From Closterium sp. NIES-65 (taxonomy: Eukaryota; Streptophyta; Zygnematophyceae; Desmidiales; Closteriaceae): a stretch of 64,000 nt of DNA. Below, piece by piece: positions 13,114-61,976 of the stretch. The stretch's first letter is position 1. Each line of letters begins with the position of its first letter. Where the stretch lies: assembly GCA_948144175.1 (NCBI GenBank), contig CANXME010002160.1:2303501-2367500 (forward strand). Reading direction: 5' to 3'. The notes below the pieces were generated by a model. The model did no database searches and was not told the origin of the DNA. It saw only the letters and a program-made list of their open reading frames with translations. Made by a program: the position numbers and the translations under genes.

Positions 13114-13146
13114 TGGTATCAGCTAGGTTAGGATCCTGTGGGATCC
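13114..13146 (+). promoter_or_regulatory. primer-binding site and adjacent stem-loop, copia A
   Basis: TGGTATCAGC at 13114 matches the complement of an initiator-Met tRNA 3' end. It is followed by GGATCC-TGTG-GGATCC (13131-13146), a 6 bp stem with a 4 nt loop. An equivalent stem with a different sequence follows the primer site in copies B, C, F, H and I. Confidence 0.7.
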
Positions 13147-13479
13147 CGTTCCTCCGTTCTCCGTTCGTACCTCCCGAGCCTGATCCTACCCCTCGTTCGT
13201 ACCAGTTCCGTTGTTACCGCGCCTAGTACCGAGCCTAGCGCCCTTTCCCCCGTCGCTTAGCGCCCTTTCTACCCGTCGCCTAGCGCCCCCCCCCCCCCCC
13301 CCCCGCGTCGCGTCGCGCCCTTTCCCCCCGTCGCGTCACGCCCTTTCCCCCCCGTCGCGTCGCGCCCGTTCCCCCCGTCGCGTCGTGCCCGCCTGTTCCC
13401 CCCCCGTCCCGTCGCCCTGTCCCGTCGCGTCGCCCTGCCCCGTCGCGTCGCTCCCGCCCTTTCCCCCGTCGCGTCGCCC

Positions 13480-13852
13480 TGCCCTACGCCCTTGCCCGTC
13501 GCCCTGCCCTAAGCCCTGGCCCGTCGCCCTACCCTAGGCCCTGGCCCGTCGCCCTCCCTAAGTCCTGGCCCGTCGCCCTACCCTAAGTCCTGGCCCGTCG
13601 CCCTACCCTAGGCCCTGGCCCGTCGCCCTACCCTAGGCCCTGGCCCGTCGCCCTACCCTAGGCCCTGGCCCGTCGCCCTACCCTAGGCCCTGGCCCGTCG
13701 CCCTACCCTAGGCCCTGGCCCGTCGCCCTACCCTAGGCCCTGGCCCGTCGCCCTACCCTAGGCCCTGGCCCGTCGCCCTCCCTACGCCCTGGCCCGTCGC
13801 CCTACCCTAGGCCCTGGCCCGTTGCCCTACCCTACGTCCTGGCCCGTCGCCC
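13480..13852 (+). repeat. 25 bp minisatellite in the copia A leader
   Basis: Roughly 14 tandem copies of a 25 bp unit of type CGTCGCCCTACCCTAGGCCC plus TGGCC, between the primer site and the gag start. Poly-C and CGTCGCG-type short repeats precede it from 13260. It is untranslated leader sequence. Confidence 0.9.
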
Positions 13853-13930
13853 TAGCCCGCTCTTCCACTGCGACTGAGTCCTCTTCTCCCCCGGTTGTTA
13901 CTCGCCTGTTCGTTCGCTTTAGTCCTCACT

Positions 13931-17344: not shown

Positions 17345-17585
17345 CACCAGTTTCCCCCAACCTCAGCCCTTAACTCTTACACCATGTGTCTCGCCATAGT
17401 GTGTCTGAAAAGGAAAGGGAATGGAGAAAGAAAGGGAGAAGTAAAATGAAACTCCCAAAAAGAAACCAAATGCAACACACATAAAACCCCCCCTCAAGAT
17501 ACCCAATCAAAACGCCCAGTCAAGACACCCCATCAAGACATCCCATCCCACGCCCCATCCCCCCCCCCCCCCCCCCCCCCCTTTA
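17345..17585. other. junction sequence between copia A and the LINE
   Basis: A-rich then C-rich sequence with CCCATCAAGACA-type short repeats ends in a poly-C run (about 17561-17581). On the minus strand this follows the LINE coding region, so it may be its 3' UTR, with a G-rich rather than A-rich end. Confidence 0.45.
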
Positions 17586-20453: not shown

Positions 20454-20599
20454 CCCCGATATGGACAGTCTCTATCGCAAGAATTTGACAACAACAATTG
20501 CTGGTGATTCCCTTGCATGCAGCCACTATTGGTGACTTCGCCAAAATATCTCGAAGATCGCTTATTGGTTCAAATACAAACAAGGTTAGAATGTTGTGT
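20454..20599. repeat. 146 bp direct repeat, right copy
   Basis: Second copy of 12753-12898, abutting the truncated 5' end of the LINE. The near identity suggests a duplication much younger than that of the flanking paralogs. Confidence 0.85.
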
Positions 20600-21187
20600 A
20601 ATGATATAATCTGGTATAGCTACGAACAGCAAAATCGAAAATGGTTGATCACGCTCCTAAGTGATGGTGCTGACTCTAGTGAAAACTAGAGTGAATTGAT
20701 GGAAGCCACCAAAAACAAAGGTCAAAAGCAGGGTCATCTCTATGATTTGAAACCACGTGTAGAATTGCAACAAGATCCAGAAACAAATATTTAGATGGGT
20801 AAAACAAAGATTACAACAAACCTAGGGGGGAGAAGGGGAGAAGTGGGGGTGCGAACAGGAGAAATCTAACCAGCCCGGACAGGGAGGGTCTGATAACACG
20901 CAGTGCTGCTATGCTACCAGATTGGTTGCTTCTATTCTTCTTGAGAACTTGCCAGCTATCCTGCCTGGCACCTGCTCAACGACCTTCCCGAGAACAGTTC
21001 ACAAACTGCCTCCCTACCCTAACCTGTCTGAGAAGCACAGCAACAGCAACCAATCCCTGTCCCTACGCAATACGTCCCTCAACTCTTCTCAGATGTGGCG
21101 ACTGATTTGGCTTGGCGCAAGTAGAGGAATAGGATGGTACGGAGTTGCCACCGCTGGAAGATTCTGGAGTTTAGTTGGGAGATTCTG
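20600..21187. other. intergenic, 3' flank of the secreted-protein paralog
   Basis: 20600-20880 shows nothing recognisable. From about 20890 the sequence is a diverged copy of 10950-11165, the 3' flank of the first paralog, confirming that the gene duplication includes downstream DNA. Confidence 0.55.
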
Positions 21188-22983
<1,796 letters not shown>

Positions 22984-23121
22984 GCTGCTGATTCCGGCGG
23001 ACGCCATTCGCTCTTCGACCTTGATCGCCACGAGCAATCCGAGAGCAGGAGTGGAGCAGGAGTGTGCAGCGGAGCAACCCAAGAGAAAGAGGTACTAGAG
23101 GAGTGATTGGTGCTAACTGGT

Positions 23122-23395: not shown

Positions 23396-23399
23396 TGGG

Positions 23400-25591: not shown

Positions 25592-25722
25592 TGTGAAGCA
25601 AGGAAAACAGGAATGAAATGACTAAGTCAGAGTTGGGTACAAATACAACCCTAGAGAGCTGTACCCCATATGTGCTACCCCACTATAGCCTACAAACATG
25701 CATCAGTCATAATACTCTGACA
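25592..25722 (-). repeat. 3' LTR of copia B
   Basis: On the minus strand it starts TGTCAGAGTATTATGACTG and ends CTTGCTTCACA. It is paired with 32845-32975. Confidence 0.92.
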
Positions 25723-25933
25723 CACCCCCATAGGCAAAGTGGGGGAGAACAAGGGGTCACAAGACCAGTCAAGCAAAGCAAAGCAAAGCAAGCTCAGGGT
25801 GGATCACAACGTCACCACACAGTCCGAGCACAAGAGCAGGGCCAGAGGCCAGTTCACATGCAGGAGTACAGACATATATATAAAACTAGACAAGCAAGAG
25901 CAGGTATATATATATGTCACAGTACAAGTGAAG

Positions 25934-28900
25934 TCAAGAGGAGAGCAAGTGAGGCAAGACAGGTACAAGACCCAGCTGGGTGCAAAAGCGCTGATGGTCA
26001 CAAGGCGCGAGTGCCTTGGTGAACACATCAGCAGTGTTGGCCTCAGAGGCCACGTACGCAAGTCGCAACTGACCACGCTGCTGCAGCTCACGAGCAAGGA
26101 AGTAGCGGAGAGCAATGTGCTTCGTTCTGTGCTCCAAGCGCTGCTCTCGACACAAGGCCAGCATGGCCTTGTTGTCTACGTACAGCACTGGAGGAGAACG
26201 AGGCGGCTCTCCAAGGTCAGTCAGTAGGTAGGTGAGCCAGCGAAGCTCCTGTGCAGCCATGGCCCCGGCGTAGATCTCAGCCTCACAACTGGAGCCGAGA
26301 ACTGAAGACGAGCGAGTAGACCGCCACGAGACAGAGCCGGAACCAAGGCTGAAGGTGTAACCCTGTGACGACCGCTGCGTAGCCTGGTCGTCAGCCCAAG
26401 AAGCGTCCGCGTGGCCGGTAAGGACCACTGGACTCCGCCCTCCAAGCACTAGCCCCATGCCCGACGTACTGCACAGGTAGCGCAATACCCTCTTCGCTGC
26501 AGCCATGTGCTCTGGTCTGTGTCTCCCAGGAGCAACATAGCGTGCAAGAATGCTCAGAGGGTATGCAAGGTCAGGTCGTGTGCAGGTCATCAGGTACATG
26601 AGGCAGCCAACAAGCTCTGCATACGGACCACTCGACTCTACGGACTCATCCGAAGGCAGAGCTGAGAGTGAGTGGCGAGTAGGCAGAGGAGTGGCCTGAG
26701 GCGAGGAGTACGTGAAGCCGAAGCGCTGAAGGACCTGCTGCACCATGTGTGACTGAGTCAAGGTAATGGTGCGGCGTGCTCTGTCCCGAGTGATCTGCAA
26801 GCCAAGGTAGCTGCGCAGTTCACCCAGGTCTGTGCACGTGTGTCTCTTCAGCAGCTCGGACTTCACGTAGGCGAGTCCAGCAGTGTCCGCTGTGGCAAAG
26901 ACCAAGTCGTCGACGTACACGAGGATGTAGAACGGCGGCAGGGAAGTGTCGGTGCGAAGAAACAGCGACGGGTCAGCAGTAGAAGGAGCAAACCCAAGAG
27001 CCGCGAGCGTAGTCCTCAGTGTGTCGTGCCACTCACGCGGTGCCTGGCGGAGACCGTAGACTGGCCGTCGGAGGCTCCACTGGGTGCCAGGAGGGAAAGT
27101 CCCAGTGAAGCCAGGTGGACGGCGAAGCCAGATCTCCTCGTGCAGGCTACCCTGCAAAAACGCAGTGCTGAAGTCGAGAGAGTGAAGCTCGTAGTCGCGC
27201 TGAGCGGCTATGTGCAGCAGCACCCGAAGAGTAGTCATCTTCGGGGTGGGAGAGAAGGTCTGAAAGTAGTCAACTCCCTGCCGCTGACTGAAGCCACGAG
27301 CAACGTACCGTGCCTTGAAGATAGGTGGAGAGCCCGGCGGCCGCTTCACCCTGAAGATCCACATGCCACTGACGATGTTCGCCCCAGGAGGGGGAACCGC
27401 GTCAACGTAGGTGCCTGTGGACTTCCAGGAAGCCATCTCTGCATCCATAGCTGCCTGCCACTGAGAGGAGTAGGGACCCTCTACGGCCTCCGCGTAAGAA
27501 CGCGGAGTCGGGATGTCTAGTGCATCCGGGTCTCCCTCAGGGGCAAGCAGTACAGACGCGAGATGAGGTGAAGCAGCCGCTAGACACTGTAAATCCTCCT
27601 GCCTGTCCTCTAGGACGTCCGTGCCAAGAGCACACTCACCCCCGACGGACGGAGGACAGACAGACACAGACTCAGCAACAAGACTAGCAGCGTAGTCGAG
27701 ACGACAGCGAGCAGCAAAGTCGACGAGCTCAGCGACTAGAGCAGACGCAGCAGTGGACTCAAAGGAGGGGTCAGTGACGACAGTAGCAAGCAGACGCGTG
27801 ACAGTAGGACTGGCAGCACGAAGAGAGTCCGACTCAGGGTCGGCAAGTGCAGGAAGAGAGGACTCAGGAGGAGAAGGCAAAGGGGCACGCAGAGGAGCAG
27901 TGGACGGACGCAAAGACATCCGGTGCGTGCCAGGGACAGGAGGAGGACGCTTACGCGAACTGCGACCACTAGCGCGAGCAGCACGAACAGGCGACGCGGG
28001 ACGAGACGCAGGCTCACGACGCTCAGCAAGACCTCCAGTAGGACCAGTGTAAGGAGAGGGAGCAGGCAGTGGAGAGGAAGGCTCCAGCAGGGACTGCGAC
28101 TAGACAGGCGGTGGACCCTCTACTGGAGGAGAAAGACCAAGAACCTTCTGCAGGAGCGGAACGAAGTACGGCCGAGGCCGCGCGGCAGCTCCAGACTCAG
28201 CAGGGACAGCACCAGCACCCTCAGCGACAGCACCAGCGCCACCCACACCTCCAGCGGCAGGACCAACAGCAGTAGGCTCAGCACGAACGCCCTCAGCAGC
28301 TCCAGCTCCAGGAGGACCCTCAGGTCCAGCAGCTCCAAGACCGGCAGCACCCGCACCCTCGACGGTCGAAGAAGCTCCAGCTCCAGCTCCAGCAGCACCT
28401 CCAGACTCAGCAGCACGCCTCCAGCGGCGAGCGAACCACTCGCGCAGCTCCTGTGGAGAGAGGGGCTCCCGGCGAGACGCAGCAGCAGGAGAAACCCCAG
28501 GCTCAGCAGCTCCAGACGCAGCACCCCCAGGCTCAGCAGCTCCCATTACAGCACCCCCAGACCCAGCACCTCCAGGCACAGCACCCCCCGGCTCAGCACC
28601 CCCAGGCTCCGCACCCTCCGCAGTAGCACCCTCAGGCCCAGCACCCCCAGCAGTAGCACCCCCAGGCTCAGCACCCCCGCGCACAGCACCCCCAGAGTCA
28701 GCACCCCCAGGCTCAGCACCCGCAGCAGCACCAGAGTCACCAGTAACCTCGACCGGGTCAACGGCGTCTACCTGGGACACACCTGAGGGGGCAGGAACCT
28801 GAGGGGGGAGGGGGTCTACCGGGGGGGGAACCGGCACAAGGAAGTCCGGGGGAAGGGGGAGGGAAGGAGTGCGGTAGGGGAAGAGACGGTAGAAGGGGAC

Positions 28901-31807
28901 GGACTCGTCGAACGTGACGTCCTGGGAGGACAGAACACGACGAGAGGAGGGGTGGTAAAACTGCCACCCTGGGGCGTCAGTGGGGAAGCCAAGGAAGACA
29001 TAGGGAGCAGCACGAGGGGACAGCTTGTCCGCAGACAAGTCGCGGACAAACGCCCGAGATCCCCAGACACGGAACACAGACGCATCGCCAACCTTCCCCG
29101 TCCACAGCAAGGCTGGGGACATCGCAGGCCGAGAGACCCGGGGGTGAAGGTTGAGCTGATGCGCCGCGTACCTCACCGCAAACGGCCACAGAAAATGGGG
29201 GGCAGCCGCATGCATCATGGACGTACGAGCGACATCCATGACCATGCCAATGCGGCGCTCAGCAATCCCATTTTGCTGTGGTGAGTCCGGAAGCGTGAAG
29301 GTCTGGCGGATCCCTCGTGCACGACAGTAGTCCCGCAGAAGGCGAGAAGAGAACTCTCCGCCTCTGTCAGAGTGCAGACGCTGAACAGGAAAGTCCGAGC
29401 CGAAGCTCTTCCTGAGCTGGAGACGAGCCTCGCGGATCCAGTCGATCAGCACCTCAGTGACCGCACCCTTGCTGCGCAAGGGGAGGACTGTGGTGTAGCG
29501 CGAGTAGTCGTCAACCACCAACAGGAAGTAGCGCTCGTAACCCTGCCCACGGACGGGGACTGGGCCCCACACATCCATGTGAAGCGTCTGCAGGGGAGCC
29601 TCTGTCGGGGGGAAGTGGGAGGAGTGAGGAGTAGCCCGGAGGCGACCCTCGACACAGGGGACACAGGAAGGTCTTGGCCCGGAGGGGAAAGGAGGGAGAG
29701 ACTGGGGAAGACCAGAGACAAGGACACGGGAAGCCATGCTCCGAAGACGGGGCAAGGAGGGGTGGCCAAGACGGTGGTGCCACAGGAGAGTCTCGTGAGA
29801 CAGGAGGCGACAAGAACAGGGGGCAGACTCAGGACCTGACCGGGACGCAGCAGCAAGCACCTGACCCGATGCAGCCACCTGACCAGACGCAGGGACAGGA
29901 GGAGACTCAACGGTCTGGGTGTAGAGACTCGACCCCGGTCGACGCGAGAACGTGGCCAGGTGTCGGCCTGTGCGTGCCTCCGTGCAGTGGGTCACCCGCT
30001 GCCCCGCAGGAGTGAACTGGTGAACCCCCACATCCTGCAGGTCCGCTCCACTCACCAAGTTCGTAGAGAACGAGGGAAGGTACAGACCCGACAGGGTGCC
30101 CGAAGGGGCAGCTGGACACGGGAGGACAGTGGAGAAGTGAGAAAGGACAGGACCCCCAGAGGGGTCAGCAAGGGAGACCGCAACTGGCCGGCCGAGCGGC
30201 GTAAGGGTAGTGCGGTCTCGAAAGAAGGAGCGAGAAGCTCCGGAGTCAAGTGTGAAAGTGAGGGAGGACGAGGACGACGTAGTACCTGAGAGCGCAGTCT
30301 CACCAGTACCTGAGAGAACAGACGCACTGGCACCTAGAGCAGCAGCCTCACAAGCACCTAGCGCACCAGTACCAATGCCTGGGTCGGGCTGGAAACAACG
30401 GTAACCCTCATTCTCCTCACTATAATCCACAACATACATAGCAGCAAGGATAGCATCAAAATCAAGATCAAAGATCGCTACACCAGCCCTGAGAAGCTCA
30501 TCCCAGCGAGGGATCTCACTAGCCCCAGGGAACTGCTGACGCCAAGCGTCCGTCAGGCGGCCAAAGCAGCGCTGGGTGGCGTGGGCACCCCCACACTGCT
30601 CACCCGCGCGGTCGCCGGAACGAAGAACGTAGGTGCAGGGACCAGTACCCCCACCCCTCTGACGCCCAGCGTACCACTCACGAAGCTGCTGAGGCGGAGG
30701 GATGTCCTGCGAGCGCTGCTGCTGCTGCCGCTGCGAGCGCTGGCCACCACCACCGCCGCTACGCTGCTGGGTACCACCTCGACCAGCTCCACCTCCTCCA
30801 CCACCACCGCCTCCTCCGCTGCCGCCTCCACCGCCTCCACCTCCGCCGCCTCCACCACCGCCGCTGCCTCTACCACCACCGCTGGCACCACCACCACCGT
30901 CTCCGCCACTGCTGCCACCACCACCACCACCCCCGCCAGTAGTCCCGCTGCCACCCCCACTCCCTCCGCCGCCACCGCCGCCACCGCCACCGCCCCCTCC
31001 AGCTCCACCCGCGCCCTTGCCCCCCTTGCCCTTGCTGGAGCGACGTCTCCCACTAGGGGCAGACGCCGCGCCGACCGACTCAAGACCAAGCAGGTCGGCA
31101 GCAGCAGCAGAGGCAACAGAGGGCAGCAAGGGGGAAGGAGAGCACCCCTCAAAGATGGGGGTGCGAGGGTCACCATGAGAAGCACCTACAGCGACTATGC
31201 TCTTCTCCGCTGCGAGGAGGGCCTTCTCGAGGAGGTCGACGGTGAGGGTGGTGGGACAGACTGCGAGAAAGTGGTCCCTGACGACGCGAAGGGAGTCAGG
31301 GAGGCGCGCGACTACGTAGTAGAGAGTGATGTACATGGGGGGGGGGTTCTTAGCGCAGAACTCAGCAGGAAGGGCGGCGCGGTAGCGAGTGTCACTAGTG
31401 CGGAGGTGCGTAATGAGGTCAGCGACAGTGGGAAAGGCAGAGAGGTCAGGAAAGAGGTAGGGAAGCATGAGACGGCTCAGTGCAGCAGTGGCAGGGGAGG
31501 AGTAGCGCGCAACTACAGCGTCGTACAAGGTCTGAGCACTCTTGTACTGACTAAAGTGCGCACGCTCAGAGGTAGGGAGGTGGCGACGCACAGCAAGACG
31601 TGCAGCAGCATCGCGGGTGGCCCACTTAGAGCGGACAGTGGGATCAGCATCAGCAGCAGGAGCAGGAGAGGCGCCAGAGGTGAGGTCAAAGAGAGAAAGG
31701 TCGTCAGCCCTGTCGCACTGTAAGAACAGCTGCAGGTCGTCTAACCAGACCTCAAAATCAATGGCGCGACCCTAAGCGTCAAAAGCTAGGACACTAGGGG
31801 TAGCCAT
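25934..31807 (-). pseudogene. copia B gag-PR-INT-RT-RH polyprotein, two TAG stops
   Basis: One frame of 1958 codons from ATG at 31807 to TGA at 25934, interrupted only by TAG near 31774 (MATPSVLAFDA*GRA, normally Glu) and TAG at 28100 (normally Gln). Order: gag, a long poly-Gly linker, knuckle-like C..GEQCGGAHATQRCF, protease LDSGASRSFF, pre-integrase HHRLGHPSLPRLR, integrase DDYSRYTTVL and HSDRGGEF with SPQQNGIAERR, a Gly/Ala/Glu linker, then RT (KARYVARGFSQ, SLDFSTAFLQG, YVDDLVFA) and RNase H (ADASWADD, EAEIYAGA, VDNKAMLAL). The rest of the frame is open, so the stops look recent. Confidence 0.9.
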
Positions 31808-32815
31808 GGCGACGACAGCGACGCAGTGCAAGCAGTAGGGAAAGAGCTCGCAGTGTCAGTGGGACTGTGCTCACCAGGCAGGGCAGGTCGTGCAGCTATG
31901 CAGAAAGGCGGCTCAGCGACCGGGCGGCTCGGGTGCACAGCGGCTCGGCTCCCGGGCGGCTCGGTGGCTGGGCGGCTCGGGCGCAGGGCGGCTCGGCTCC
32001 CGGGCGGCTCGGCGGCAGGGCGGCTCGGGTGCAGGGCGGCTCGGCTCCCGGGCGGCTCGGCAGCAGGGCGGCTCGGGTCCCGGGCGGCTCGGCTGCTGGG
32101 GCGGCTCGGCCGGGAGATGTAGGGGCGGGGCCGTCAGGTGCAGCGGCGGGTCGACCGGTGCAGTGGCGGGCCGGCAGGTGCAGCGGCGGGCCGGCAGGTG
32201 CAGCGGCGGGCCGGCAGGTGCAGCGGCGGGCCGGTAGGTGCAGGCGGCGGGCCGTAGGGTGCAGCGGCGGGCCGTAGGGTGCAGCGGCGGGCCGGCAGGT
32301 GCAGCGGCGGGGCCGTCAGGTGAAGCGGCGGGCCGCTGGGTGCAGCGGCTGGCCGGCAGGTGCAGCGGCGGGCCGGCAGGAGCAGCGGCGGGCCGGCAGG
32401 AGCAGCGGCGGGGCCGTCAGGTGAGGCGGCGGGCCGGCAGGAGCAGCGGCGGGCCGTAGGGTGCAGCGGCGGGGCCGTCAGAGGCGGCGGGCCGTAGGGT
32501 GCAGCGGCGGGCCGTAGGGTGCAGCGGCGGGGCCGTCAGAGGCGGCGGCGGGGCCACGGCAGTAGAGGCGGGGCCGCGTCAGGGGAGGCGGCGGGGCCGC
32601 GTAAGGGGAGGCGGCGGGGCCGCGTCAAGGGAGGCGGCGGGGCCGCGTCAGGGGAGGCGGCGGGGCCGCGTCAAGCAGGCGGCGGGGCCGCGATCAGGAG
32701 AGGTGGGGGGGCCGCGTCTGAGGGACAGCGGGCTCGCGAGGGAAAAGGCGACCCGAGGGGTCGCTAAAAAAAAGGGCGCGCCTCGGGGCGCGCTTCGGTG
32801 GGCCCTAAAAAAAAC
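31808..32815 (-). repeat. GC-rich tandem-repeat leader of copia B
   Basis: Between the gag start and the primer site. 31910-32115 is an array of CGGCTCGGCTCCCGGG-type units, and 32120-32740 an array of 19-20 bp GCAGCGGCGGGCCGGCAGGT-type units. Arrays of the same type occur in the leaders of C, F and H. Confidence 0.88.
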
Positions 32816-32844
32816 GGTCCTAAGGCAGGACCCGCTCTAAACCA
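32740..32844 (-). promoter_or_regulatory. primer site and stem-loop series, copia B
   Basis: Read 5'-3' on the minus strand from 32844: the primer site, then a 6 bp stem (GGTCCT/AGGACC, 32816-32832), an 8-T run, the self-complementary GGGCCC, then GCGCGCC..GGCGCGC and GCGACCCCTCGGGTCGC hairpins separated by another T run. Serial hairpins split by T runs right after the primer site suggest a structured RNA leader. Confidence 0.65.
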
Positions 32845-32975
32845 TGTGAAGCAAGGAAAACAGGAATGAAATGACTAAGTCAGAGTTGGGTACAAATACA
32901 ACCCTAGAGAGCTGTACCCCATATGTGCTACCCCACTATAGCCTACAAACATGCATCAGTCATAATACTTTGACA
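32845..32975 (-). repeat. 5' LTR of copia B
   Basis: 131 bp, same length as the 3' copy; followed on the minus strand directly by the primer site. Confidence 0.92.
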
Positions 32976-34884: not shown

Positions 34885-34888
34885 TGGG

Positions 34889-35018
34889 TGTGAAACAAGT
34901 AAACAGGAATGATGAATGACTAAGGAAAGATTGGGTACAAATGCAACCCTAGAAACCCTGTACCCCATATGTGCTACCCCACTATAGCCTACAGCAACTA
35001 TGTCATATCAATCTGACA
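34889..35018 (-). repeat. 3' LTR of copia C
   Basis: On the minus strand runs from TGTCAGATTGATATGAC to TTGTTTCACA; paired with 42112-42241. Confidence 0.92.
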
Positions 35019-35229
35019 CACCCCCATAGGCAAAGTGGGGGAGAACAAGGGGTCACAAGACCAGTCAAGTAAAGCAAAGCAGAGCAAGCTCAGGGTGGAT
35101 CACAACGTCACCACACATTCCGAGCACAAGAGCAGGGCCAGTGGCCAGTTCACATGAAGGAGTACAGACATATATATATAAAACTAGACAAGCAAGAGCA
35201 GGTATATATATGTCACAGTACAAGTAAAG

Positions 35230-41146: not shown

Positions 41147-41199
41147 GATAGCAGTAGAGAGAGGGCAGTGCGCAGAGTAAAGCTCAGTGCTCACCAGAC

Positions 41200-42000
41200 A
41201 GGGCTGTGCAGGGAGGGCTCGGGCGGCTCGGGCGGCCTGGGCGGCTCGGGCGGCTTTGGCGGCTCGGGCGGCTCGGGCGGCTCGACTGCTGGGCTGCTCG
41301 GGCGGGTCGGGCGGCACTGCAGCTGGGGCGGCTCGGCTGCTGGGGCGGCTCGGCTGCTGGGGCGGCTCGGCTGCTGGGGCGGCTCGGCGGCTGGGGCGGC
41401 TCGGCTGCTGGGGCGGCTCTGCTGCTGGGGCGGCTCGGCCGGGAGATGCAGGGGCGGGGCCGTCAGGTGCAGCGGCGGGTCGACCGGTGCAGCGGCGGGC
41501 CGGCAGGTGCAGCGGCGGGGCCGTAGGGTGCAGCGGCGGGCCGGTAGGTGCAGCGGCGGGGCCGTCAGGTGAAGCGGCGGGCCGCTGGGTGCAGCGGCGG
41601 GCCGTAGGTGCAGCGGCTGGGCCGTCAGGTGAAGCGGCGGGCCGTAGGGTGCAGCGGCGGGGCGGCAGGCGCAGCGGCGGGGCCGGCAGGTGAGGCGGCG
41701 GGCCGTAGGGTGCAGCGGCGGGCCGGCAGGTGCAGTGGCGGGGCCGTCAGGTGCAGCGGCGGGCCGGCAGGGCCGCGTCAGAGTAGGCGGCGGGGCCGCG
41801 ACAGTGGAGGCGGCGGGGCCGCGTCAAGCAGGCGGCTGGGCCGCGTCAGTGGAGGCGGCGGGGCCGCGTCAAGCAGGCGGCGGGGCCGCGACCAAGCGGG
41901 CGTCAGGGCCGCGTTAGAGCCGGCGGCGGGGCCGCGTCAGTGGAGGCGGCGGGGCTGCGTCAAGCAGGCGGCGGGGCCGCGATCAGGAGGGGCAGCGGGG
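41200..42000 (-). repeat. GC-rich tandem-repeat leader of copia C
   Basis: 41210-41445 is an array of GGGGCGGCTCGGCTGCT-type units; 41446-42000 holds GCAGCGGCGGGCCGGCAGGT-type and GGCGGCGGGGCCGCGTCA-type units. Same order as in the leader of B but with different copy numbers. Confidence 0.88.
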
Positions 42001-42004
42001 CCGC

Positions 42005-42111
42005 GAGGGAAATGGCGACCCGAGGGGTCGCTAAAAAAAATGCGCGCCTCGGGGCGCGCTTCGGTGGGCCCTAAAAAAAAACGGTCCTTAGGAAGGACCC
42101 GCTCTATACCA
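42005..42111 (-). promoter_or_regulatory. primer site and stem-loop series, copia C
   Basis: On the minus strand: the primer site, then GGTCCTT-CCT-AAGGACC (42083-42099, 7 bp stem), a T9 run, the palindrome GGGCCC, the GCGCGCC/GGCGCGC hairpin, another T run and the GCGACCCCTCGGGTCGC hairpin. Same layout as in copia B. Confidence 0.65.
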
Positions 42112-42241
42112 TGTGAAACAAGTAAACAGGAATGATGAATGACTAAGGAAAGATTGGGTACAAATGCAACCCTAGAAACCCTGTACCCCATATGTGCTAC
42201 CCCACTATAACCTACAGCAACTATGTCATATAAATCTGACA
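42112..42241 (-). repeat. 5' LTR of copia C
   Basis: 130 bp partner of 34889-35018; the primer site follows directly on the minus strand. Confidence 0.92.
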
Positions 42242-43047: not shown

Positions 43048-43394
43048 TGTCAGAATCCCAACCACTAGACCATTGGGATAAAAGAGCTTGTTTGTGTAGC
43101 GGGTCAGTGCGCCCATAACCCCCTAGGACAACGAGCCTGTAACCCTTCCCTAGGATCAATCGGGGATCACCAGTGGACCTCTGACACCCCCCCGCACTGG
43201 GATGCCCGAAGTGCACACACTAGGATTCGAACCCGAGACCTTCGCTCTGATACCATGTTAGAATCCCAACCACTAGACCATTGGGATAAAAGGGCTTTTT
43301 AAGTAGCGGGTCAGGGCGCCCATAACCCCCCTAGGACAACGAGCCTGTAACCTTTCCCTAGGATCAATCGGGGATCACCAGTGGACCTCTGACA
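43048..43394 (-). mobile_element. TRIM: 347 bp miniature LTR retrotransposon
   Basis: Two 139 bp LTRs (43048-43186 and 43256-43394), starting TGTCAGAGGTCC and ending TTCTAACA or TTCTGACA on the minus strand, flank a 69 bp interior. The interior starts with the primer site TGGTATCAGAGC and ends with the purine tract GTGCGGGGGG. The target duplication AAATC is perfect (43043-43047 and 43395-43399). No coding capacity. It is inserted in the gypsy G1 protease. The LTR end carries TGGTCTAGTGGTTGG (A-box-like) and the interior GGGTTCGAATCC (B-box-like). Confidence 0.92.
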
Positions 43395-48715: not shown

Positions 48716-48736
48716 GCGCAGGACAGGAAAGTCTAG

Positions 48737-50888: not shown

Positions 50889-50966
50889 TGGTGCTGACTG
50901 TGGTGCTAAAGTGGTGTACGCGCTGAGCAGGGACGCGAAGTAAGGAAAAGGAATTTTCCTTACACT

Positions 50967-50998
<32 letters not shown>

Positions 50999-52255: not shown

Positions 52256-52326
52256 TGGCGACAGACGCGGCGCGCGGGGCGACGGCGGGCTGCACGCGAC
52301 GGCGGGCTGTGCGTGGCGGCGGGCTG

Positions 52327-52457
52327 TGTCAGAATATTATAGCTTATGCTTTTGTGTAGGCTGTAGTGGGGTAGCCCATATAGGGTACAACCCAATTAGG
52401 GTTAGTACTTGTACCCAACTCTTTCATAGTGCATTCATTCTCGTTTCAGTTTTCTCA
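52327..52457 (+). repeat. 5' LTR of copia F
   Basis: TGTCAGAATATTATAGC to GTTTTCTCA, followed immediately by the primer site. Confidence 0.94.
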
Positions 52458-52500
52458 TGGTATCGAGCAGGTTCCCTCGTGGGAACTGTTCCTAGGGCCC
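52458..52500 (+). promoter_or_regulatory. primer site and stem-loop, copia F
   Basis: TGGTATCGAGCAG, then GTTCCC-TCGT-GGGAAC (52471-52486), then the self-complementary GGGCCC at 52495-52500 followed by CACC and a T8 run. The GGGCCCACC motif is the same in B, C, H and I. Confidence 0.7.
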
Positions 52501-52599
52501 ACCGATTTGATTTTTTTTCCTGCCCGGAGCGCGCTCAGCCCTTGCCCGAGTCACGCTCCCCCTTTCTCACTGTGTCGCGCCGCCCTAGCGGCTGTGTCG

Positions 52600-53520
52600 C
52601 GCCACCCTTGACGGCCCCGATCCGCCGCCCTAGCGGCCCCGTCGCCTATCCCGCGGCCCTCGAGCCGCCCTTCCCGGCCCCGATTCGCCGTCCCTTCGGC
52701 CCCGTCGCCTACCCCGCGGCCCTCGCGCCACCCTTCCCGGCCCGGCCCCGCCCTTGCTGGCCCCGTCACCTACCTGCGGCCCCGACGCCTACCTGCGGCC
52801 CCGTCGCCTACCTGCGGCCCCACCGCCTACCTGCGGCCCCGCCGCCTACCTGCGGCCCCGTCGCCTACCAGCGGCCCCTCCGCCTACCTGCGGCCCCGCT
52901 GCCTACCTGCGGCCCTGTCGCCTACCTGCGGCCCCGCCGCCTACCTGCGGCCCCGCCGCCTACCTACGGCCCCGTCAGCTACCTGCGGCCCCGCCGCCTA
53001 CCTGCGGCCCCATCGCTGCCCTTCCCGGCTTAGGCGCCGCCCTTTCTCGGCCCTGACGCCGCCCTTCCCGACCCGGCCCAGTCTCTGCTGGCCCCGTCGC
53101 CTACCCTACGGCCCCGGCGCTGCCCCTTCCCGGCCCCGGCCCAGGCCCTGCTGGCCCCGTCGCACGCCCTTCCCGGCCCCGACCCCGCCTTCACGCGGCT
53201 CCGCCGAGCTACTTCCGAGCCGCCAGCGCCACCCGAGCCGCCGCGCCACCTGAGCCGCCCGAGCCGCCGTCCCGCCGAGCCGCGTTAGCCGCCCGAGCCG
53301 CCCGAGCCGCCGTCCCGCCGAGCCGCCAGAGCCGCCCGAGCCGCCGTCCCGCCGAGCCGCCTGAGCCGCCCGAGTCGTCTGAGCCGCCCGAGCCACCCGA
53401 GCCGCAGAGTAGCCAAGTCGCCGAGCTGCAGTTCCTGTCGAGCCGCCGAGCTGCAGTTCCTGACGAGCCGCCAAGCTGCAGTTCCTGCCGAGCTGCCGAG
53501 CCACCGAGCCGCCCGAGCCG
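52600..53520 (+). repeat. GC-rich tandem-repeat leader of copia F
   Basis: 52750-53020 is an array of about 14 units of CCTACCTGCGGCCCCGCCG type (19 bp), and 53210-53515 an array of GAGCCGCCCGAGCCGCC type. These are the complements of the arrays in the minus-strand leaders of B and C, so array type and order are conserved in the family. Confidence 0.88.
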
Positions 53521-53597
53521 CCCTGTCCGGTAAGAGCAGCGCCTCTGTCACTGCACTGCCCTTACCCCACTGTTCGCGCTACTAGTCTACTGCTGTC

Positions 53598-56500
53598 GTG
53601 GCTACCCCTAGTGTCCTCGCTTTTGACGCTGAGGGTCGGGCCATTAACTTTGATGTCTGGGTAGATGACCTGCAGCTTTTCCTACAGTGCGATAGGGCAG
53701 ACGGTCTCTCCCTCTTTGACCTCACCTCTGGTGCCTCTCCTGCCCCTGCTGCTGATGCTGACGCCACTGTTCGCTCACAGTGGGCCACACGCGATGCTGC
53801 TGCACGTCTTGCTGTGCGTCGCCACCTGCCTACCTCTGAGCGTGCGCACTTTAGCCAGTACAAGAGTGCTAGGACCTTGTACGACGCTGTAGTTGCACGC
53901 TACTCCTCCCGTGCCACTGCTGCACTTAGCCGCCTCATGCTACCGTACCTCTTCCCTGACCTTGCTGCCTTTCCCACAGTCGCTGACCTTATTACGCACC
54001 TCCGCACTAGTGACACTCGCTACCGCACTGCGTTTCCTGCTGAATTCTGCGCCAAGAACCCCCCCCCCCATGTACATCACTCTCTACTACATAGTCACCC
54101 GCCTCCCTGACTCCCTTCGCGTAGTCAGGGACCACTTCCTCTCAGTTTGCCCCACCACCCTCACCGTTGACCTCCTCGAGAAGGCCCTCCTAGCAGCGGA
54201 GAAGAGCATAGTCGCTGTAGGAGCCTCTCGTGGTGACCCTCGCACCCCCATCTTTGAGGGGTGTTCCCCCTCCCCCCTTTTGCCCTCTGTTGCCTCTGCT
54301 GCTGCGGCCGACCTCGTTGGGCTTGAGTCGGTCGGTGCGGCGTCTACCCCTAGCGGGAGACGCCGCCCTGGCAAGGGCAAGGGGGGCAGGGGCGATGGAG
54401 GAGCTAGCGGGGGCGGTGGAGGCGGCGGTGGAGGCGGCGGAGGGAGTGGGGGTGGCGGTGGGGGTGGTGGCGGGGGCGGAGGTGTCGGTGGCGGCAGTGG
54501 AGGCGGAGGCGGCGGCGGTGGCGATGGGAGCGGAGGTGGTGGCGGAGGTGGCGGCGGTGGAGGAGGCGGTGGCGGAGGAGGTGGAGATGGTCGGGGTGGC
54601 GCTGCGCAGAGGGTCGGCTCCGGTGGTGGTCAGAGCCAGCAGCAGCAGCAGCGCACTCGTGACATCCCCTCCTCTCAGCATCTCCGTGAGTGGTACAATG
54701 CACGCCAGCGGGGTGGGGGTACTGGTCCGTGCACCTACGTCCTACGCATCGGCGACCGTGCGGGTGAGCAGTGCGGGGGTGCGCACTCCACCCAGCGCTG
54801 CTTTGGCCGCCTGACGGACGCTTGGCGTCACCAGTTCCCGGAGGCCACGGAGATCCCCCGCTGGGGTGAGCTGTCTAGGGCGAGAGTAGCTGTCTTTGAC
54901 CTTGACTTTGATGCTATTCTTGCTGCCTTGTATGCTGTGACTATTAGTGATGAGGGTGATTGTTACCGGTGTTATCCGCCCGACCCGGGCATTGAGACTG
55001 CCGCTCTAGGTACCGGTGAGGCTGCTGCTCTAGGTGCTAGCGAGGCTGCTGCTCTAGGTGCTCGTGCGTCTGCTCCCTCAGGTGCTGGTGAGTCTGCTCT
55101 CTCAGGTACTACGTCGGCTTTCGCCTCCCACACCTTCACCCTTGACTCGGGGGCTTCTCGCTCCTTCTTTCGAGACCTCACCACACTCATGCCGCTTGGC
55201 CGGCCAGTTGCAGTCTCTCTGGCAGACCCCTCTGAGGGTCTTCTCCTTGCTCACTACTCCACTGTCCTCCCGTGTCCGACGGACCCCTCTGGCACCCTGT
55301 CTGGTCTTTACCTCCCCTCGTTCTCTACGAACTTGGTGAGTGGTGCTGACCTACAGGATGCGGGGGTTCACCAGTTCACTCCTGCGAGTCAGCGGGTGAC
55401 CCACTGCACGGACGCTCGGACAGGCCGACACCTGGCCATGTTTACACGTCGGCCGGGATCGAGCCTGTACACACTGACCACTGAGTCTCCTCAAGTCACT
55501 GTGTCTCGTTAGGTAGCTGCGTCGGGTCAGGTGTTTGCCGCAGCGTCCAGGTCTGGTCCTAAGTCTGCCCCCTGCTCGTGTCGCCTCCTGTCTCACAAGA
55601 CTCTCCTCTCGCAACACCGCCTTGGTCACCCCTCCCTGCTTCGTCTCCGAGGCATGGCCTACCGTGTCCTTGTCTCTGGTCTTCCCCGGTCCCTCCCTCC
55701 CCTTCCTCCAGGGCCTGGCCCTACCTGCGTCCCCTGTGTCGAGGGGCGGCAGCGGGCTGCCCCTCACTCCCAGTTTACTCCGACAGAGGCTCCGCTGCAG
55801 ACGCTTCACATGGACGTGTGGGGCCCGGCCCGCGTCCGTAGACAGGGTCACGAGCGCTACTTCCTGCTAATGGTTGACGACTACTAGCGTTACACCGCAG
55901 TCTTGCGCTTACGCAGCAAGGGTGATGTCACTGCGGTGTTGATCGACTGGATCCGCGCAGCTCGTCTCCAACTTAGGAAGAGCTTCGGCTCGGACTTTCC
56001 TGTTCTGCGTCTGCACTCTGACAGAGGCGGAGAGTTCTCCTCTGGCCTTCTGCGAGCCTACTGTCGTGCACGAGGCATCCGCTAGACCTTCACGCTTCCG
56101 GACTCCCCAAAGCAAAATGGGATTGCTGAGCGCCGCATTGGCATGGTCATGGATGTCGCTCGTACGTCCATGATGCATGCGGCTTCCCCCCATTTTCTGT
56201 GGCCGTTTGCGGTTCGGTACGCGGCGCATCAGATCAACCTTCAACCCAGGGTCTCCATGCTGGAGACTTCCCCAGCTTTGCTGTGGACGGGGAAGGTTGG
56301 CGATGCGTCTGCGTTCCGTGTCTGGGGATCTCGGGCGTTTGTTCGCGACTTGTCTGCAGACAAGCTGTCCCCTCGTGCTGCCTTTTGCATCTTCCTTGGC
56401 TTCCCCCCTGATGCGCCAGGGTAGCAGTTCTACCACCCCACCTCTCGCCGTGTTCTGTCCTCCCAGGTCGTCACGTTTGACGAGTCGGTCCACTACTACC

Positions 56501-59500
56501 GCCTCTTCCCCTACCGCACTCCGTCCCTCCATCTGCCGCCGCTCTTCCTTGTACCAGGTCCCCCCCCGGTAGACCCCCTCCCCCCTCAGGGTCCTTCCCC
56601 TTCAGGTGTGTCCCAAGTAGACGTAGTCGAGCTTGTCGAGGTTACTGGTGACTCTGATGCTGCTGAGGGTGCTAAGCCTCGGGGTGCAGACTCTAGGGGT
56701 GCTGAGCCTGGGGGTGCTGAGCCTGCGGGTGCTACTACTTGGGGTGGTGAGCCTGGGGGTGCTACGACTGGGGGTGCTGAGCCTGGGGGTGGTGAGCCTG
56801 GGGGTGCTACGCCTGGGGGTCCTACACCTGGGGGTGCTGAGCCTGGAGGAGCGGAGCTTGAGGGAGTTGAGCCTACTCGTGTGGCGTCTGGCAGTACTGG
56901 GCCTGGAGGTTCTCCCGGTACTTCGTCTTGACGGGAGCCTCTCTCTCCACAGGAGCTGCGTGAGTGGTTTGCCCGCCGCTGGAGGCGTGCTGCTGGAGCT
57001 GGAGGTTCTCCGGCTCCTGAGGGTGCTGGTGCCGCGAGTCCCAGAGGTGCTCGTGCTGGGAGTACTCGAGCTGCTGGGCCTGCGGGTGCGACTAGAGCTG
57101 GAGCTGCTGAGGGTGTTGGTGCTGAGGCTACTGCTGTCGGTCCTGGAGGCGGTCCTGCTGGGGGTACTACTGGTGCTGTTGGAGGTACTGGAGCTGGAGG
57201 TGCTCCTGGCACTGGAGCTGCCGCTGGGGGCACTGGTGCTGTCCCTGCTGTGTCTGGAGTCGCCGCGCGGCCCCCCGTACTTCGTTCCGCTCCTTCAGCA
57301 GGTTCTTGGTCTTCCGCCTTCTACTGGTCCTTCTCCTCCCTTAGAGTGTCCACAGCTTGTCCCGTCACAGTTACAGCCGGCCTCCCCACTGCCAGCTCCT
57401 TCTCCCTACACTGGTCCTACTGGAGGTCTTGCTGAGCGTCGTGAGCCTGCGTCTCGCCCTGCGTCGCCTGTCCGTGCTGCTCGAACTAGTGGTCGAGGTT
57501 CGCGTCAGCGTCCTCCTGTCCCTGGCACGCACCGGATGTCTCTGCGTCCGTCCACTGCTCCTCTGCGTGCCCCTTTGCCTTCTCCTCCTGAGTACTCTCT
57601 TCCTGCTCTTGCCGACCCGGAGTCGGACTCTCTTCGTGGTGCCAGTCCTACTGTCACGCGTCTCCTTGCTACTGTCGTCACCGACCCTTCTTTTGAGTCC
57701 ACTGCTGCGTCTGCCCTAGTTACTGAGCTCGTCGACTTTGCTGCTCGCTGTCGTCTAGACTACGCTGCTAGTCTTGTCGCTGAGTCTCAGTCTGTCTGTC
57801 CTCCGTCCGTCGTGGGTGAGTGTGCCCTGGGCACGGACGTCCTTGAGGACAGGCAGGAGGAGTTCCAGTGTCTGGCTGCTGCTTCACCTCATCTCGTGTC
57901 CGTACTGCTTACCCCTGAGGGAGACCCGGATGCACTTGACATCCCGACTCCGCGCTCTTACGCGGAGGCGATAGAGGGTCCCTACTCCTCTCAGTGGCAG
58001 GCAGCTATGGACGCAGAGATGGCTTCCTGGAAGTCCACAGGCACCTACGTTGACGAGGTTTCCCCGCCTGGGGCGAACATCGTCAGTGGCATGTGGATTT
58101 TCAGGGTGAAGCGGCTGCCGGGTTCTCCGCCTGTCTTCAAGGCGCGCTACGTGGCTCGTGGCTTCAGTCAGTGGCAGGGAGTTGACTACTTTCAGACCTT
58201 CTCTCCTACCCCGAAGATGACCACTCTTCGGGTACTTCTGCACATAGCTGCTCAACGTGACTACGAGCTGCACTCTCTTGACTTCAGCACTGCTTTCTTG
58301 CAGGGCAGCCTACACGAGGAGATCTGGCTGCGTCGCCCACCTGGCTTCACTGGGTCTGTTCCTCCTGGCACCCAGTGGAGCCTCCGCTGGCCAGTCTACG
58401 GTCTCCGCCAGGCACCGCGTGAGTGGCACGACACACTGAGGACTACACTTGCGGCTCTTGGGTTTGCTCCCTCTACTGCCGACCCGTCGCTGTTTCTGCG
58501 CACCGACACTTCTTTGCCGCCGTTCTACATCCTCGTGTACGTTGACGACTTGCTCTTTGCCACAGCTGACACTACTCGACTCGCCCACGTGAAGTCTGAG
58601 CTGCAGAAGAGACACACGTGCACAGACCTGGGTGAACTGCGTAGCTACCTTGGCTTGCAGATCACCCGGGACAGAGCACGCCGCACCATTACCCTGACTC
58701 AGTCACACATGGTGCAGCAGGTCCTTCAGCGCTTCGGCTTCACGTACTCCTCGCCTCAGGCCACTCCTCTATCTACTCGCCACTCGCTCTCACCTCTGCC
58801 TTCGGATGAGTCCGTAGAGTCGAGTGGCCCGTACCCAGAGCTTGTTGGCTGCCTCATGTACCTGATAACCTGCACTCGACCTGACCTTGCATACCCTCTT
58901 AGCATTCTCGCACGCTATGTTGCTCCTGGGAGTTACAGACCGGAGCACATGGCTGCAGCGAAGAGGGTGTTGCGCTACTTGTGCAGTACGTCCGGCATGG
59001 GGCTTGTGCTTGGAGGGCAGAGTCTAGTGGTCCTCACTGGGCATGCAGACGCTTCTTGGGCTGACGACCAGGCTATGCGGCGGTCGTCACAGGGTTACAC
59101 CTTCAGCCTTGGTTCTTGCTCTCTTTCGTGGCGGGCTACCCGCTCGTCTTCTGTTCTCGGCTCCAGTTGTGAGGCTGAGATCTACGCCGGGGCCATGGCT
59201 GCTCAGGAGCTTCGCTGGCTCACCTACCTACTGACTGACCTCGGAGAGCCGCCTTGTTCTCCTCCAGTGCTGTACGTAGACAACAAGGCCATGCTGGCCT
59301 TGTGTTGAGAGCAGAGACTGGAGCACAGAACGAAGCACATTGCTCTTCGCTACTTCCTTGCTCGTGAGCTGCAGCAGCGTGGTCAGCTGTGTCTTGCGTA
59401 CGTGGCCTCTAAGGCCAACACTGTTAATATTTTCACCAAGGCACTTGCGCCTTGTGATCGTCAGCGCTTCTGTACTCAGCTTGGTCTTGTGCCTGCCTTG

Positions 59501-59521
59501 CCTCACTTGCTCACCTCTTGA
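53598..59521 (+). pseudogene. copia F gag-PR-INT-RT-RH polyprotein, multiply disrupted
   Basis: The gag start codon is GTG instead of ATG (VATPSVLAFDAEGRAI). One extra C in a C-run near 54060 shifts the frame. In-frame stops: TAG 55510 (VSR*VAASG, Gln), TAG 55885 (DDY*RY, Ser), TAG 56083 (GIR*TF, Gln), TAG 56422 (PG*QFYHP, Trp), TGA 56930 and TGA 59306 (LALC*EQR, Arg). All domains are recognisable: knuckle CGGAHSTQRCF, protease LDSGASRSFF, pre-integrase and integrase, RT (SLDFSTAFLQG, YVDDLLFA), RNase H (ADASWADD, EAEIYAGA), ending at TGA 59519. Confidence 0.92.
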
Positions 59522-59735
59522 CCTTGCTTGTACTGTTACATATATATATACACCTGCTCTTGCTTGTCTAACCTTTTATATATATATGTACTCCTGCATG
59601 TGAACTGGCCTTGTGGCCTTGACCTTGTGCTCGGAATGTGTGGTGACTTTGTGATCCACCGTGAGCTTGCTTTGCTTTGCTTTGCTTGACTGGTCTTGTG
59701 ACCCCTTGTACTCCCTCACTTTGCCTATGGGGGTG

Positions 59736-59866
59736 TGTCAGAACATTATAGCTTATGCTTTTGTGTAGGCTGTAGTGGGGTAGCCCATATAGGGTACAAC
59801 CCAATTAGGGTTAGTACTTGTACCCAACTCTTTCATAGTGCATTCATTCTCGTTTCAGTTTTCTCA
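59736..59866 (+). repeat. 3' LTR of copia F
   Basis: 131 bp, starts TGTCAGAACATTATAGC and ends TTTTCTCA, preceded by the purine tract and followed by the GGCTG target copy. Confidence 0.94.
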
Positions 59867-59871
59867 GGCTG

Positions 59872-60232
59872 TGCGGGCTCGACGCGGGCTGCGCGGGCAA
59901 CGCAGGTCGGCGCGCGGCGCTACAGTAGTGGCGCGCGCGAAAAAAGTGACGCGCGCTCGAGCAGTCAAGGCGCGCGCGAAAAAAAAAAAAAAAAGTGACG
60001 CGCGCGCGCGAGCAGCTCAGGCGCGCGCGAGCAGCAGGCAAGGCAGGCAGGCAGTAGGTGAAGTAACACAGTTACGGGTGGGCCCTATTCTTAGGTCCTA
60101 GAGACCTCCTGCTCTAGATACCATGTTGAGACTCAGGCAAGGATGATCTTAACTAAGATGAGAATGATACAAGAAGGAAAACCCTAAGGGGTTGTACTCT
60201 ACAGTATGTACCCTTCTACAACCTACCAGTCA
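59872..60232 (-). mobile_element. copia I remnant: LTR, primer site and leader
   Basis: 60124-60232 reads on the minus strand as an LTR ending CTGAGTCTCAACA, followed by the primer site TGGTATCTAGAGCAGG and the stem AGGTC-CTAGA-GACCT (60093-60107), then GGGCCCACC (60079-60087) and a leader rich in GCGCGC. The leader is interrupted at 59867 by copia F and its rest is probably 52256-52326. No coding region remains. The outer LTR end at 60232 is estimated. Confidence 0.6.
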
Positions 60233-61750
60233 TCTTCTACGAAAACCTCACCCTCCGGTATTACCTCTCCAACTTGCAAGAAGGAAACCCCGATCGCTGC
60301 GATGGTTTTCTTGGCACCCGAGCCTTCCCCTCGGCAGACGACGAAGCTGACTGGGACAAGCAGAACGTGGAAGGAGCCTCGGAAGAAGTCGGACCCCTCC
60401 CCTACTGCTCCGTCGACGTGCCAATGGATGACGAAAATCCACGCGAAAGCATCAACGCCGAAACATATTACCATTTCGCCAACAACGGTTACGTTACACC
60501 TGCATAAGTCAACACCAACGAAGCAGAACGTGTAGGACCAAACTTCAACCCTACACGAGAAGCGGGAGACGAATCAGTTTATCCCGAGGACACATCACTT
60601 CCCCGCTACACACAGAGTGGCCTCCAGATACTTGGCCTGGTCATCGCGGTCCACGGCACTGTGCTTCCTTAGGAGCCTGCAACAGTTCAGCAGGCTCTGG
60701 GGGGGGAGCATAAGGAAAAATGGCGCGAAGCCATGGACAAGGAGCTAAAATCACTAGAGGAACGCAACACCTTGAAGGTTGTTCCTATCGGCGTAGCACG
60801 GAAGAAGACGATTCTCACCGGAAAGTGGGTCTTCCGCGTGAAGACAAGGGCTGACGGCACCATCAAAAAGTTCAAAGCACGCTGGGTTGTACGCGGCTTC
60901 GACCAGGAACATGGACGCGATTTCACCGAGACATTCGCTCCAGTCAGCCGACACACCTCGCTGCGAATTCTCCTCGCAATCGCCGCCATGAAGAATAGGA
61001 CGCTGCGGCAAATTGACGTCGCCAACACATTCCTCTACGCACCCGTGGATGCAGAAATCTTCGTCGAGCTACAGCAGGGCTCCAACGGAGAGCCTAATCA
61101 AGTCTGTGAGCTGCTGAAGTCGCTGTATGGCATCAAACAAGCCCCGAGGCTGTGGCAGCAGTACCTGCACGCAAGACTCATTCGGATCGGATTCCGCCAA
61201 CTACCTCACGACCAAGGCATGTACCGGCTCACAAAGGGCACCGACTACATCTTGCTAATCGTCTACGTAGATGATTTGCTCTACATCGGCTCAACCGACA
61301 GCGTCACTACCTGGTTCGAAGGGGAGCTGCAGCAAGACCTTACACTCACAGTCTCATCTACCGTCATGCAATATCTCAGGCTCAACATACGGGAAGAGGA
61401 GGATGCGATCTACCTCAGCGCCGGGAAATACGCCGATACCATCGCCAAGCGCTTCGCACTCACACCGACCGTCATCTCCACGCTATACCGCCACACGGCA
61501 GGAAACCACAAGGAAAGCTCCGCTCTACTCAACCCCGCCGGCATACGCGACTACCAGAGGAAACTGGGATGCCTCCTCTTCGCAGCTGTCACCTGCCGCC
61601 CGGACCTATCGTACTCTATAAGCCAGCTCGCCACCTACCTCAAGAAACCCGAAGCGGAACATCTGGCGGAGCTCGACCGCGCTCTTCACTACCTCGTTAG
61701 CACCCCGACAATTGGCCTGACCTACCATAAGAACACAACTATAACGCCTA
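60233..61750 (+). pseudogene. copia G fragment: RT and RNase H start, different lineage
   Basis: The open frame from 60733 encodes a copia reverse transcriptase unlike the other copies: WREAMDKELKSLEERNT, GKWVFRVKTRADGTIKKFKA, RWVVRGFDQEHGRDFTETFA, QIDVANTFLYAPVDAEIFVE, LYGIKQAPRLW, and the catalytic VYVDDLLYIG. Upstream (60240-60510) is the integrase-RT linker (CDGFLGTRAFPSADDEADWD) with stops. The sequence is cut at 61750 by copia H, just after an RNase H start (LTYHKNTTI). The remainder may lie beyond the window. Confidence 0.82.
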
Positions 61751-61886
61751 TGTCAGAACATATATGTAGCTTATGCTGTTGTGTAGGCTACAGTGGGGTA
61801 TCCCATAGGGGGTACAACCCAATTAGGGTTTTGCTATTTGTACCCAACTCTTTCATAGTGCATTCATTCTCGTTCTATTTTCCACA
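61751..61886 (+). repeat. 5' LTR of copia H
   Basis: 136 bp from TGTCAGAACATATATG to TTTTCCACA; closely similar to the F LTR but with a TATATATG insertion and other changes. The primer site TGGTATCGAGCAGG begins at 61887. Confidence 0.9.
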
Positions 61887-61976
61887 TGGTATCGAGCAGG
61901 TTCCCCCGTGGGAACTGTGCTTAGGGCCCACCACTTTTAAACTTTTTTTTCTACCCGGAGCGCGCTCCGGGCCCTC
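61887..61976 (+). promoter_or_regulatory. primer site and stem-loops, copia H
   Basis: The primer site is followed by GTTCCC-CCGT-GGGAAC (61900-61915), the self-complementary GGGCCC (61924-61929) with CACC, a T8 run and CCCGGAGCGCGCTCCGGG, a perfect 9 bp self-complementary hairpin or dimer site. Confidence 0.7.

Follow-up and report, generated by a model that had tools for sequence, protein, structure and literature searches.

The window analyzed here, a 64,000-nucleotide stretch of the Closterium sp. NIES-65 genome, contains copia-type elements with long terminal repeats (LTRs) of ~131 bp, and six copies (A, B, C, F, H, and I) carry a short hairpin just inside the LTR edge (Table 1). Element B spans 25592-32975 and is bounded by an LTR pair at 25592-25722 and 32845-32975; elements C (34889-42241) and F (52321-59866) are likewise LTR-paired. 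Copy H extends beyond the window end, and copy I consists of an LTR with a short leader adjoining F. Between the LTRs of element B, the one tested, lies an RVT_2-type reverse transcriptase (E = 9.3e-50), as expected of the Ty1/copia group. TGGTAT or a close variant directly abuts the LTR edge, both in the window copies and at the additional junctions described below. A preliminary description of this DNA had listed six hairpins, and we found all of them where it had placed them. The arm sequences it gave are also correct, but those of B and C were written in reverse order, a trivial difference.

Table 1. Primer sites, hairpins, and anticodon-arm boxes of the six window copies
Copy	Feature	Sequence	Positions	Strand	Remark
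A	Primer site	TGGTATCAGCTA	13114..13125	+	Abuts LTR end (...GACA)
A	Hairpin	GGATCC-TGTG-GGATCC	13131..13146	+	No GGGCCCACC box downstream
B	Primer site	TGGTTTAGAGCG	32833..32844	-	
B	Hairpin	GGTCCT-GCCTT-AGGACC	32816..32832	-	Shuffle test
B	Anticodon-arm box	GGGCCCACC	32797..32805	-	Cofold: 9/9 predicted pairs with initiator tRNA
C	Primer site	TGGTATAGAGCG	42100..42111	-	
C	Hairpin	GGTCCTT-CCT-AAGGACC	42083..42099	-	Shuffle test
C	Anticodon-arm box	GGGCCCACC	42063..42071	-	Exact match and cofold
F	Primer site	TGGTATCGAGCA	52458..52469	+	
F	Hairpin	GTTCCC-TCGT-GGGAAC	52471..52486	+	Shuffle test
F	Anticodon-arm box	GGGCCCACC	52495..52503	+	Exact match and cofold
I	Primer site	TGGTATCTAGAG	60112..60123	-	
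I	Hairpin	AGGTC-TCTAG-GACCT	60093..60107	-	Shuffle test
I	Anticodon-arm box	GGGCCCACC	60077..60085	-	Exact match and cofold
H	Primer site	TGGTATCGAGCA	61887..61898	+	Among window leaders, H is closest to antisense tRNA
H	Hairpin	GTTCCC-CCGT-GGGAAC	61900..61915	+	Shuffle test
H	Anticodon-arm box	GGGCCCACC	61924..61932	+	Exact match and cofold

Several further features were recorded in the window. The G+C-rich long leaders consist of tandem repeats whose unit differs per copy (A, 13333-13904, ~25 nt; B, 31875-32760, 16-23 nt; C, 41267-42050, 17-23 nt; F, 52654-53073, ~19 nt; H, 61931-62640, ~31 nt). Inspected by eye, the LTRs of A, B, C, F, and H (e.g., 32845-32975, minus strand) share the arrangement GGGTACA...AGGGTT...TGTACCC, a possible transcript stem-loop. 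A SINE-like stretch at ~43140-43290 (minus strand) includes a perfect TGGTATCAGAGC flanked by tRNA-promoter-like motifs, and the sequence after this TGGTATCAGAGC recurs behind the hairpin of leader 2461212. Positions 4485-5373 form a large near-palindrome with an 86% match to its own reverse complement.

We collected comparable junctions from 264 kb, comprising the window and a 200-kb flank. A profile of LTR ends gave 51 matches on this sequence. Visual inspection retained 28 with a primer site after the LTR end; the remaining 23 were excluded because they have none. These 28 junctions represent 23 distinct segments for the stem statistics, and together with two leaders found through a tRNA search (L058 and L059) they make up a set of 30 leaders. 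The sample comes from one contig except for L058, L059, and the relatives of copy A. An acceptor-type TGG/TGC site is present at the LTR edge in all 28 junctions.

A perfect stem of 5 to 7 bp follows the primer site in 28 of 28 junctions (within +11 to +38). The stem reaches at least 5 bp in all 23 distinct segments, compared with a mean of 1.4 segments (maximum, 5) in equally optimized shuffles, which we regard as the fair control, although it ignores kinship among the copies. For single copies, the number of 5,000 mononucleotide shuffles of the 28-nt segment that reached the observed stem was 35 for A, 6 for B, 3 for C, 81 for F, 103 for H, and 221 for I. We counted 12 stem sequences among the 28 junctions (10 if cut to five pairs), one of which is common to ten junctions. 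At every one of the five positions, some pair types differ from one another in both bases. Compensatory differences are seen, for example, between TCGATCC/GGATCGA and TCGACCC/GGGTCGA and between GTTCCC/GGGAAC and GGTCCT/AGGACC. When the arms were re-dealt at random, the pairing was 0.59 (sd, 0.07; maximum, 0.88 of 5,000); the full pairing of the actual arms is given by construction, because each stem was chosen as the best perfect stem. A MAFFT alignment of the leaders placed the 5' arms of different stem groups one column apart, so we lined the stems up on the closing pair, a choice that favors pairing by construction. The stem is conserved at the junctions examined, and the earlier claim that pairing is kept while the letters change was supported, with the same proviso on kinship. 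Whole 61-nt leaders, on the other hand, folded no better than dinucleotide shuffles in six of six window leaders (z, -0.02 to -1.36); with z near 0, whole-leader folding energy was dropped as evidence of structure. The predicted stem extends into the final bases of the primer site in B, C, F, and H.

Beyond the hairpin, the motif GGGCCCACC (the box) occurs exactly five times in the window, always at a hairpin site and never in A, in agreement with the preliminary description. The run of eight or nine T that had been noted near most boxes is seen for B, C, F, and H and is absent from I. We recognized GGGCCCACC as a complement of the plant initiator tRNA-Met, from which we take the label “plant-type.” Base for base, the box complements the 5' side of the anticodon stem plus the start of the anticodon loop, corresponding to linear nucleotides 25-33 of the tRNA, in which the anticodon is at 33-35. 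The exact box is found in 21 of the 28 junctions, and it starts 36-43 nt past the start of the primer site, compared with 42 nt in antisense tRNA. The seven junctions without the exact box are 2249659, which has 8 of the 9 bases; copy A; three of the four copies of a short subfamily with a TGC primer site; and 2270183 and 2461212, in which other sequence after the hairpin seems to cut the leader off.

Conservation within the box ends abruptly. GGGCCC is present in 23 of the 30 leaders and is followed by ACC in 22 of these 23; GGGCCC served as the selection rule for this count, whereas ACC was not part of the rule. At the next three positions, information drops to 0.56, 0.28, and 0.03 bits (22 distinct rows). 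The edge of the box is sharp, and where it falls is better accounted for by nine base pairs to the tRNA than by a palindrome alone. One observation counts against tRNA pairing as the full account: the dinucleotide TA immediately preceding the box is also conserved (19 of 22 distinct rows), and this is not simply predicted by pairing with the tRNA, for which the complement reads TTAT.

The genome containing the window (874,075,685 bases, 2,400 contigs) yielded 34 matches to the initiator tRNA, six of them at 100% over 72-73 nt. All 20 matches that were fetched were called tRNA-Met; ten belong to a variant whose T stem is altered, six match the plant-type letters, and four are further diverged. 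ARAGORN reported no tRNA gene in the window or the 200-kb flank. Scored jointly against antisense tRNA, the six window leaders reached 67, compared with -9.5 (sd, 12.3) for shuffled references (0 of 5,000 as good). The stretch between the primer site and the box, taken alone, reached 34 across the window copies, compared with -7.7 (sd, 10.2; 0 of 5,000). When copies were compared singly with shuffled references, the result was clear for H (0 of 2,000), moderate for B, C, F, and I (35-56 of 2,000 as good), and weak for A (222 of 2,000), as it was for 2249659 (235 of 2,000) and 2270183 (177 of 2,000). Control references, namely, the sense and reversed tRNA and tRNA-Ser in both directions, gave means of 13.5-14.6 over the 30 leaders, compared with 25.0 for antisense tRNA.

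In seven related leaders, the likeness to antisense initiator tRNA covers most of the tRNA; five of them were found by their LTRs and two by the tRNA search. In 2384600, 2398773, 2465456, and 2274677, the likeness runs through the variable region, the anticodon arm, and the D arm (0 of 2,000 each), and 2372325 likewise follows antisense tRNA past the box (3 of 2,000). L058 and L059 surfaced in the tRNA search because the match runs through the CCA end; having been found with a tRNA query, they were picked for likeness. L058, the closest leader, matches antisense tRNA at 45 of 50 bases without a gap, and L059 opens with 20 bases that agree fully with the variant-tRNA complement, its likeness reaching the D arm. 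Upstream of both, the sequence ends in ACA, like the LTRs here. A tree of the 30 LTRs joined A with L058 and put the short subfamily beside them; placement was unsure for L059 (45% of columns filled) and 2372325, so we make no claim on the number of times antisense tRNA was gained. As judged from these alignments, the leader is homologous to and collinear with antisense initiator tRNA. The hairpin occupies the position where the complement of the tRNA T arm would fall. The tight hairpin is absent in L058 and L059, the two leaders closest to the tRNA, and for the order of events we infer that the hairpin probably replaced the T-arm complement. The identity of GGGCCCACC as an initiator-tRNA complement, the apparent descent of the leader from antisense tRNA, and the T-arm position of the hairpin had all escaped the preliminary description.

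The short subfamily merits separate mention. L019 (~6940-8140), L021 (~1110-2650), and L027 (~7830-9340) are elements of 1.1-1.5 kb with related LTRs of ~130 bp; they are too short for a polymerase and contain the most complete antisense initiator tRNA within the 264 kb. Their primer site starts with TGC where TGG is expected, and a fourth copy, 2274677, was not matched to a second LTR. Downstream of the antisense tRNA, the leaders of L019, L021, and L059 contain recurring G+C-rich inverted repeats, GCCGTGCGCCCCGAGGCGCGCGGCGG among them, and a T-rich spacer near TTTTCTGCC comes after each; a related GCGCGCCCCGAGGCGCGC is found behind the box in B and C.

Our main reading, to which we assign a probability of roughly 0.7, is that an antisense initiator tRNA has been worn to a bipartite primer site, in which the acceptor-end primer-binding site (PBS) and the anticodon-arm box are bridged by the hairpin in a Ty1-like arrangement. 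The leader after the 5' LTR would be the descendant of an antisense copy of the host initiator tRNA-Met, the whole of which reverse transcriptase presumably copied at some time in the past. In most copies, wear would have left two patches in tRNA order, the primer site and the box. The primer site would pair with the 3' acceptor end of the tRNA, and the box with the 5' side of the anticodon stem and on into the start of the loop. The primer tRNA would be gripped at two places, not one, with the hairpin between the grips, where it may bridge both helices facing the tRNA T arm or may open for further pairing. By analogy with yeast Ty1, we infer a role in priming or tRNA packaging.

Folding predictions are compatible with such pairing. 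In protein-free cofolding with the unmodified variant tRNA, the primer site is predicted to form 8-13 pairs in every one of the 30 leaders, and the box to form its full nine pairs in 21 of the 22 leaders that have it in exact form. Among these 22 predicted complexes, 5 keep the leader hairpin and the tRNA T arm facing each other between the helices, and 15 open both to form a longer duplex. In a simpler duplex prediction, at most 8 of 300 shuffles did as well as the leader in 27 of the 30 cases; 2249659, 2270183, and 2461212 fell short of this. The preliminary description had suggested dimerization, packaging, or priming as a role; of the three, priming fits best.

We considered whether the antisense tRNA could be a mere relic of reverse transcriptase overrunning the primer site, with a box and hairpin that have no present use. 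Near-complete and worn leaders do occur side by side, and the subfamily of copy A has spread to at least 40 near-identical matches (96-100% identity; 40 scored of 1,096 candidates), with no box in copy A or in the three relatives read (L012, L014, and L017; L010 is the window copy itself). Yet nine bases are kept although the sequence on either side, in the same copies, varies almost without restriction, and a perfect stem with changing letters persists at 28 of 28 junctions. Neither is expected of a relic, and we consider this account unlikely.

A tRNA-independent function seems a poorer candidate still. Here, GGGCCC would be a dimerization site and the hairpin a packaging signal. The self-complementarity of GGGCCC was correctly noted in the preliminary description; it is a perfect palindrome, kept in most leaders, with the hairpin at every junction, and 5'-end signals of this kind are known in Ty1 (PMC5454406, PMC4974528) and mentioned for BARE (PMC3735527). 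GGGCCCACC does not, however, appear to be chiefly a dimer site, as conservation continues undiminished through the ACC beyond the palindrome and the box lies at the collinear tRNA position. In the predicted minimum-energy folds of the six window leaders, GGGCCC is never whole in a hairpin loop, and the short subfamily retains other antisense-tRNA stretches though three of its four copies have lost the palindrome. The palindrome is present in the tRNA itself, so a separate cause is unneeded. Finally, we considered half-tRNA priming of the kind seen in Drosophila copia and Ty5, in which a primer cleaved in the anticodon loop would have the box as its true primer site; this is very improbable. 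The box is complementary to the anticodon-stem strand used by half-tRNA primers, and the plant copia lineages Osser, Bryco, and Gymco-II include elements with half-tRNA-Met primer sites (PMC5371799 and PMC6317226), but the box lies well inside the leader instead of at the LTR edge, and the LTR ends directly before TGGTAT, so minus-strand DNA should start there.

The bipartite site that we favor has partial counterparts in known systems. Patches 3' of the Ty1 PBS (Box 0, Box 1, and Box 2.1) pair with the initiator tRNA and serve tRNA packaging and initiation (PMC5454406 and PMC4974528). As in Ty1, the elements here are copia-type, with short patches 3' of the PBS that complement the initiator tRNA outside its acceptor end and follow the order of the tRNA. 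The Ty1 boxes pair with the T and D hairpins, whereas here the conserved box corresponds to the anticodon arm, a hairpin is found at the T-arm position, and D-arm complement is seen only in the fuller leaders. Some copies here also keep the antisense of most of the tRNA, unlike Ty1, the one system of the two in which function has been demonstrated. Plant Ty1/copia elements with whole-tRNA-Met sites share the initiator primer site at the LTR edge and RVT_2 (PMC6317226), but the complement here passes the primer site and in some copies extends to the D arm. In the survey PMC6317226, primer sites were scored as perfect matches to a tRNA 3' end over 12 bp or more, so a 9-nt inner box would go unseen. 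Complementarity to the anticodon stem is shared with half-tRNA-primed copia elements (Drosophila copia, Ty5, Osser, Bryco, and Gymco-II; PMC5371799 and PMC6317226), in which it is located at the LTR edge and not 36-43 nt inside. The Ty3 bipartite PBS likewise uses two or more patches to bind initiator tRNA, a binding that is predicted here; the Ty3 patches lie at opposite RNA ends, whereas those here are ~40 nt apart (PMC5371799 and PMC4974528).

The pattern TGGTAT-N(18-46)-TAGGGCCCACC had four matches in viral contigs, which we judged from their flanks to be due to chance, and a reverse transcriptase piece had no relative among the viral contigs. A viral scan for the anticodon arm returned five contigs; all of them have a tRNA-Met gene that, outside the arm, departs from the plant-type initiator, and they were set aside. 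Rfam had nothing in the window at gathering score; at a loose threshold, copy H gave one match far below the cut-off, which we took as chance. Extended primer sites are already known from yeast. The anticodon-arm box, the bridging hairpin, and the near-complete antisense-tRNA leaders were not found in the open-access literature searched.

More tentatively, and at somewhat less than even odds, these leaders may preserve the origin of a bipartite primer site. Reverse transcriptase would have copied the whole initiator tRNA into the leader, and selection would have kept the PBS and the anticodon-arm box and put a hairpin in place of the T-arm complement, resulting in two helices and two facing hairpins. 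If so, the match of the box to the half-tRNA primer strand may also make this leader a link between whole- and half-tRNA priming in copia.

In the open-access literature searched, the plant-type copia leader beyond the short primer site is hardly described, and yeast Ty1 serves as the model. Primer-site scans that stop at the tRNA 3' end overlook the remainder of such a leader. The reading proposed here makes an exact and cheap prediction, namely, that GGGCCCACC should base-pair with the anticodon stem. A single genome here holds both worn and near-complete antisense-tRNA leaders, which may open the origin of a bipartite site to comparison.
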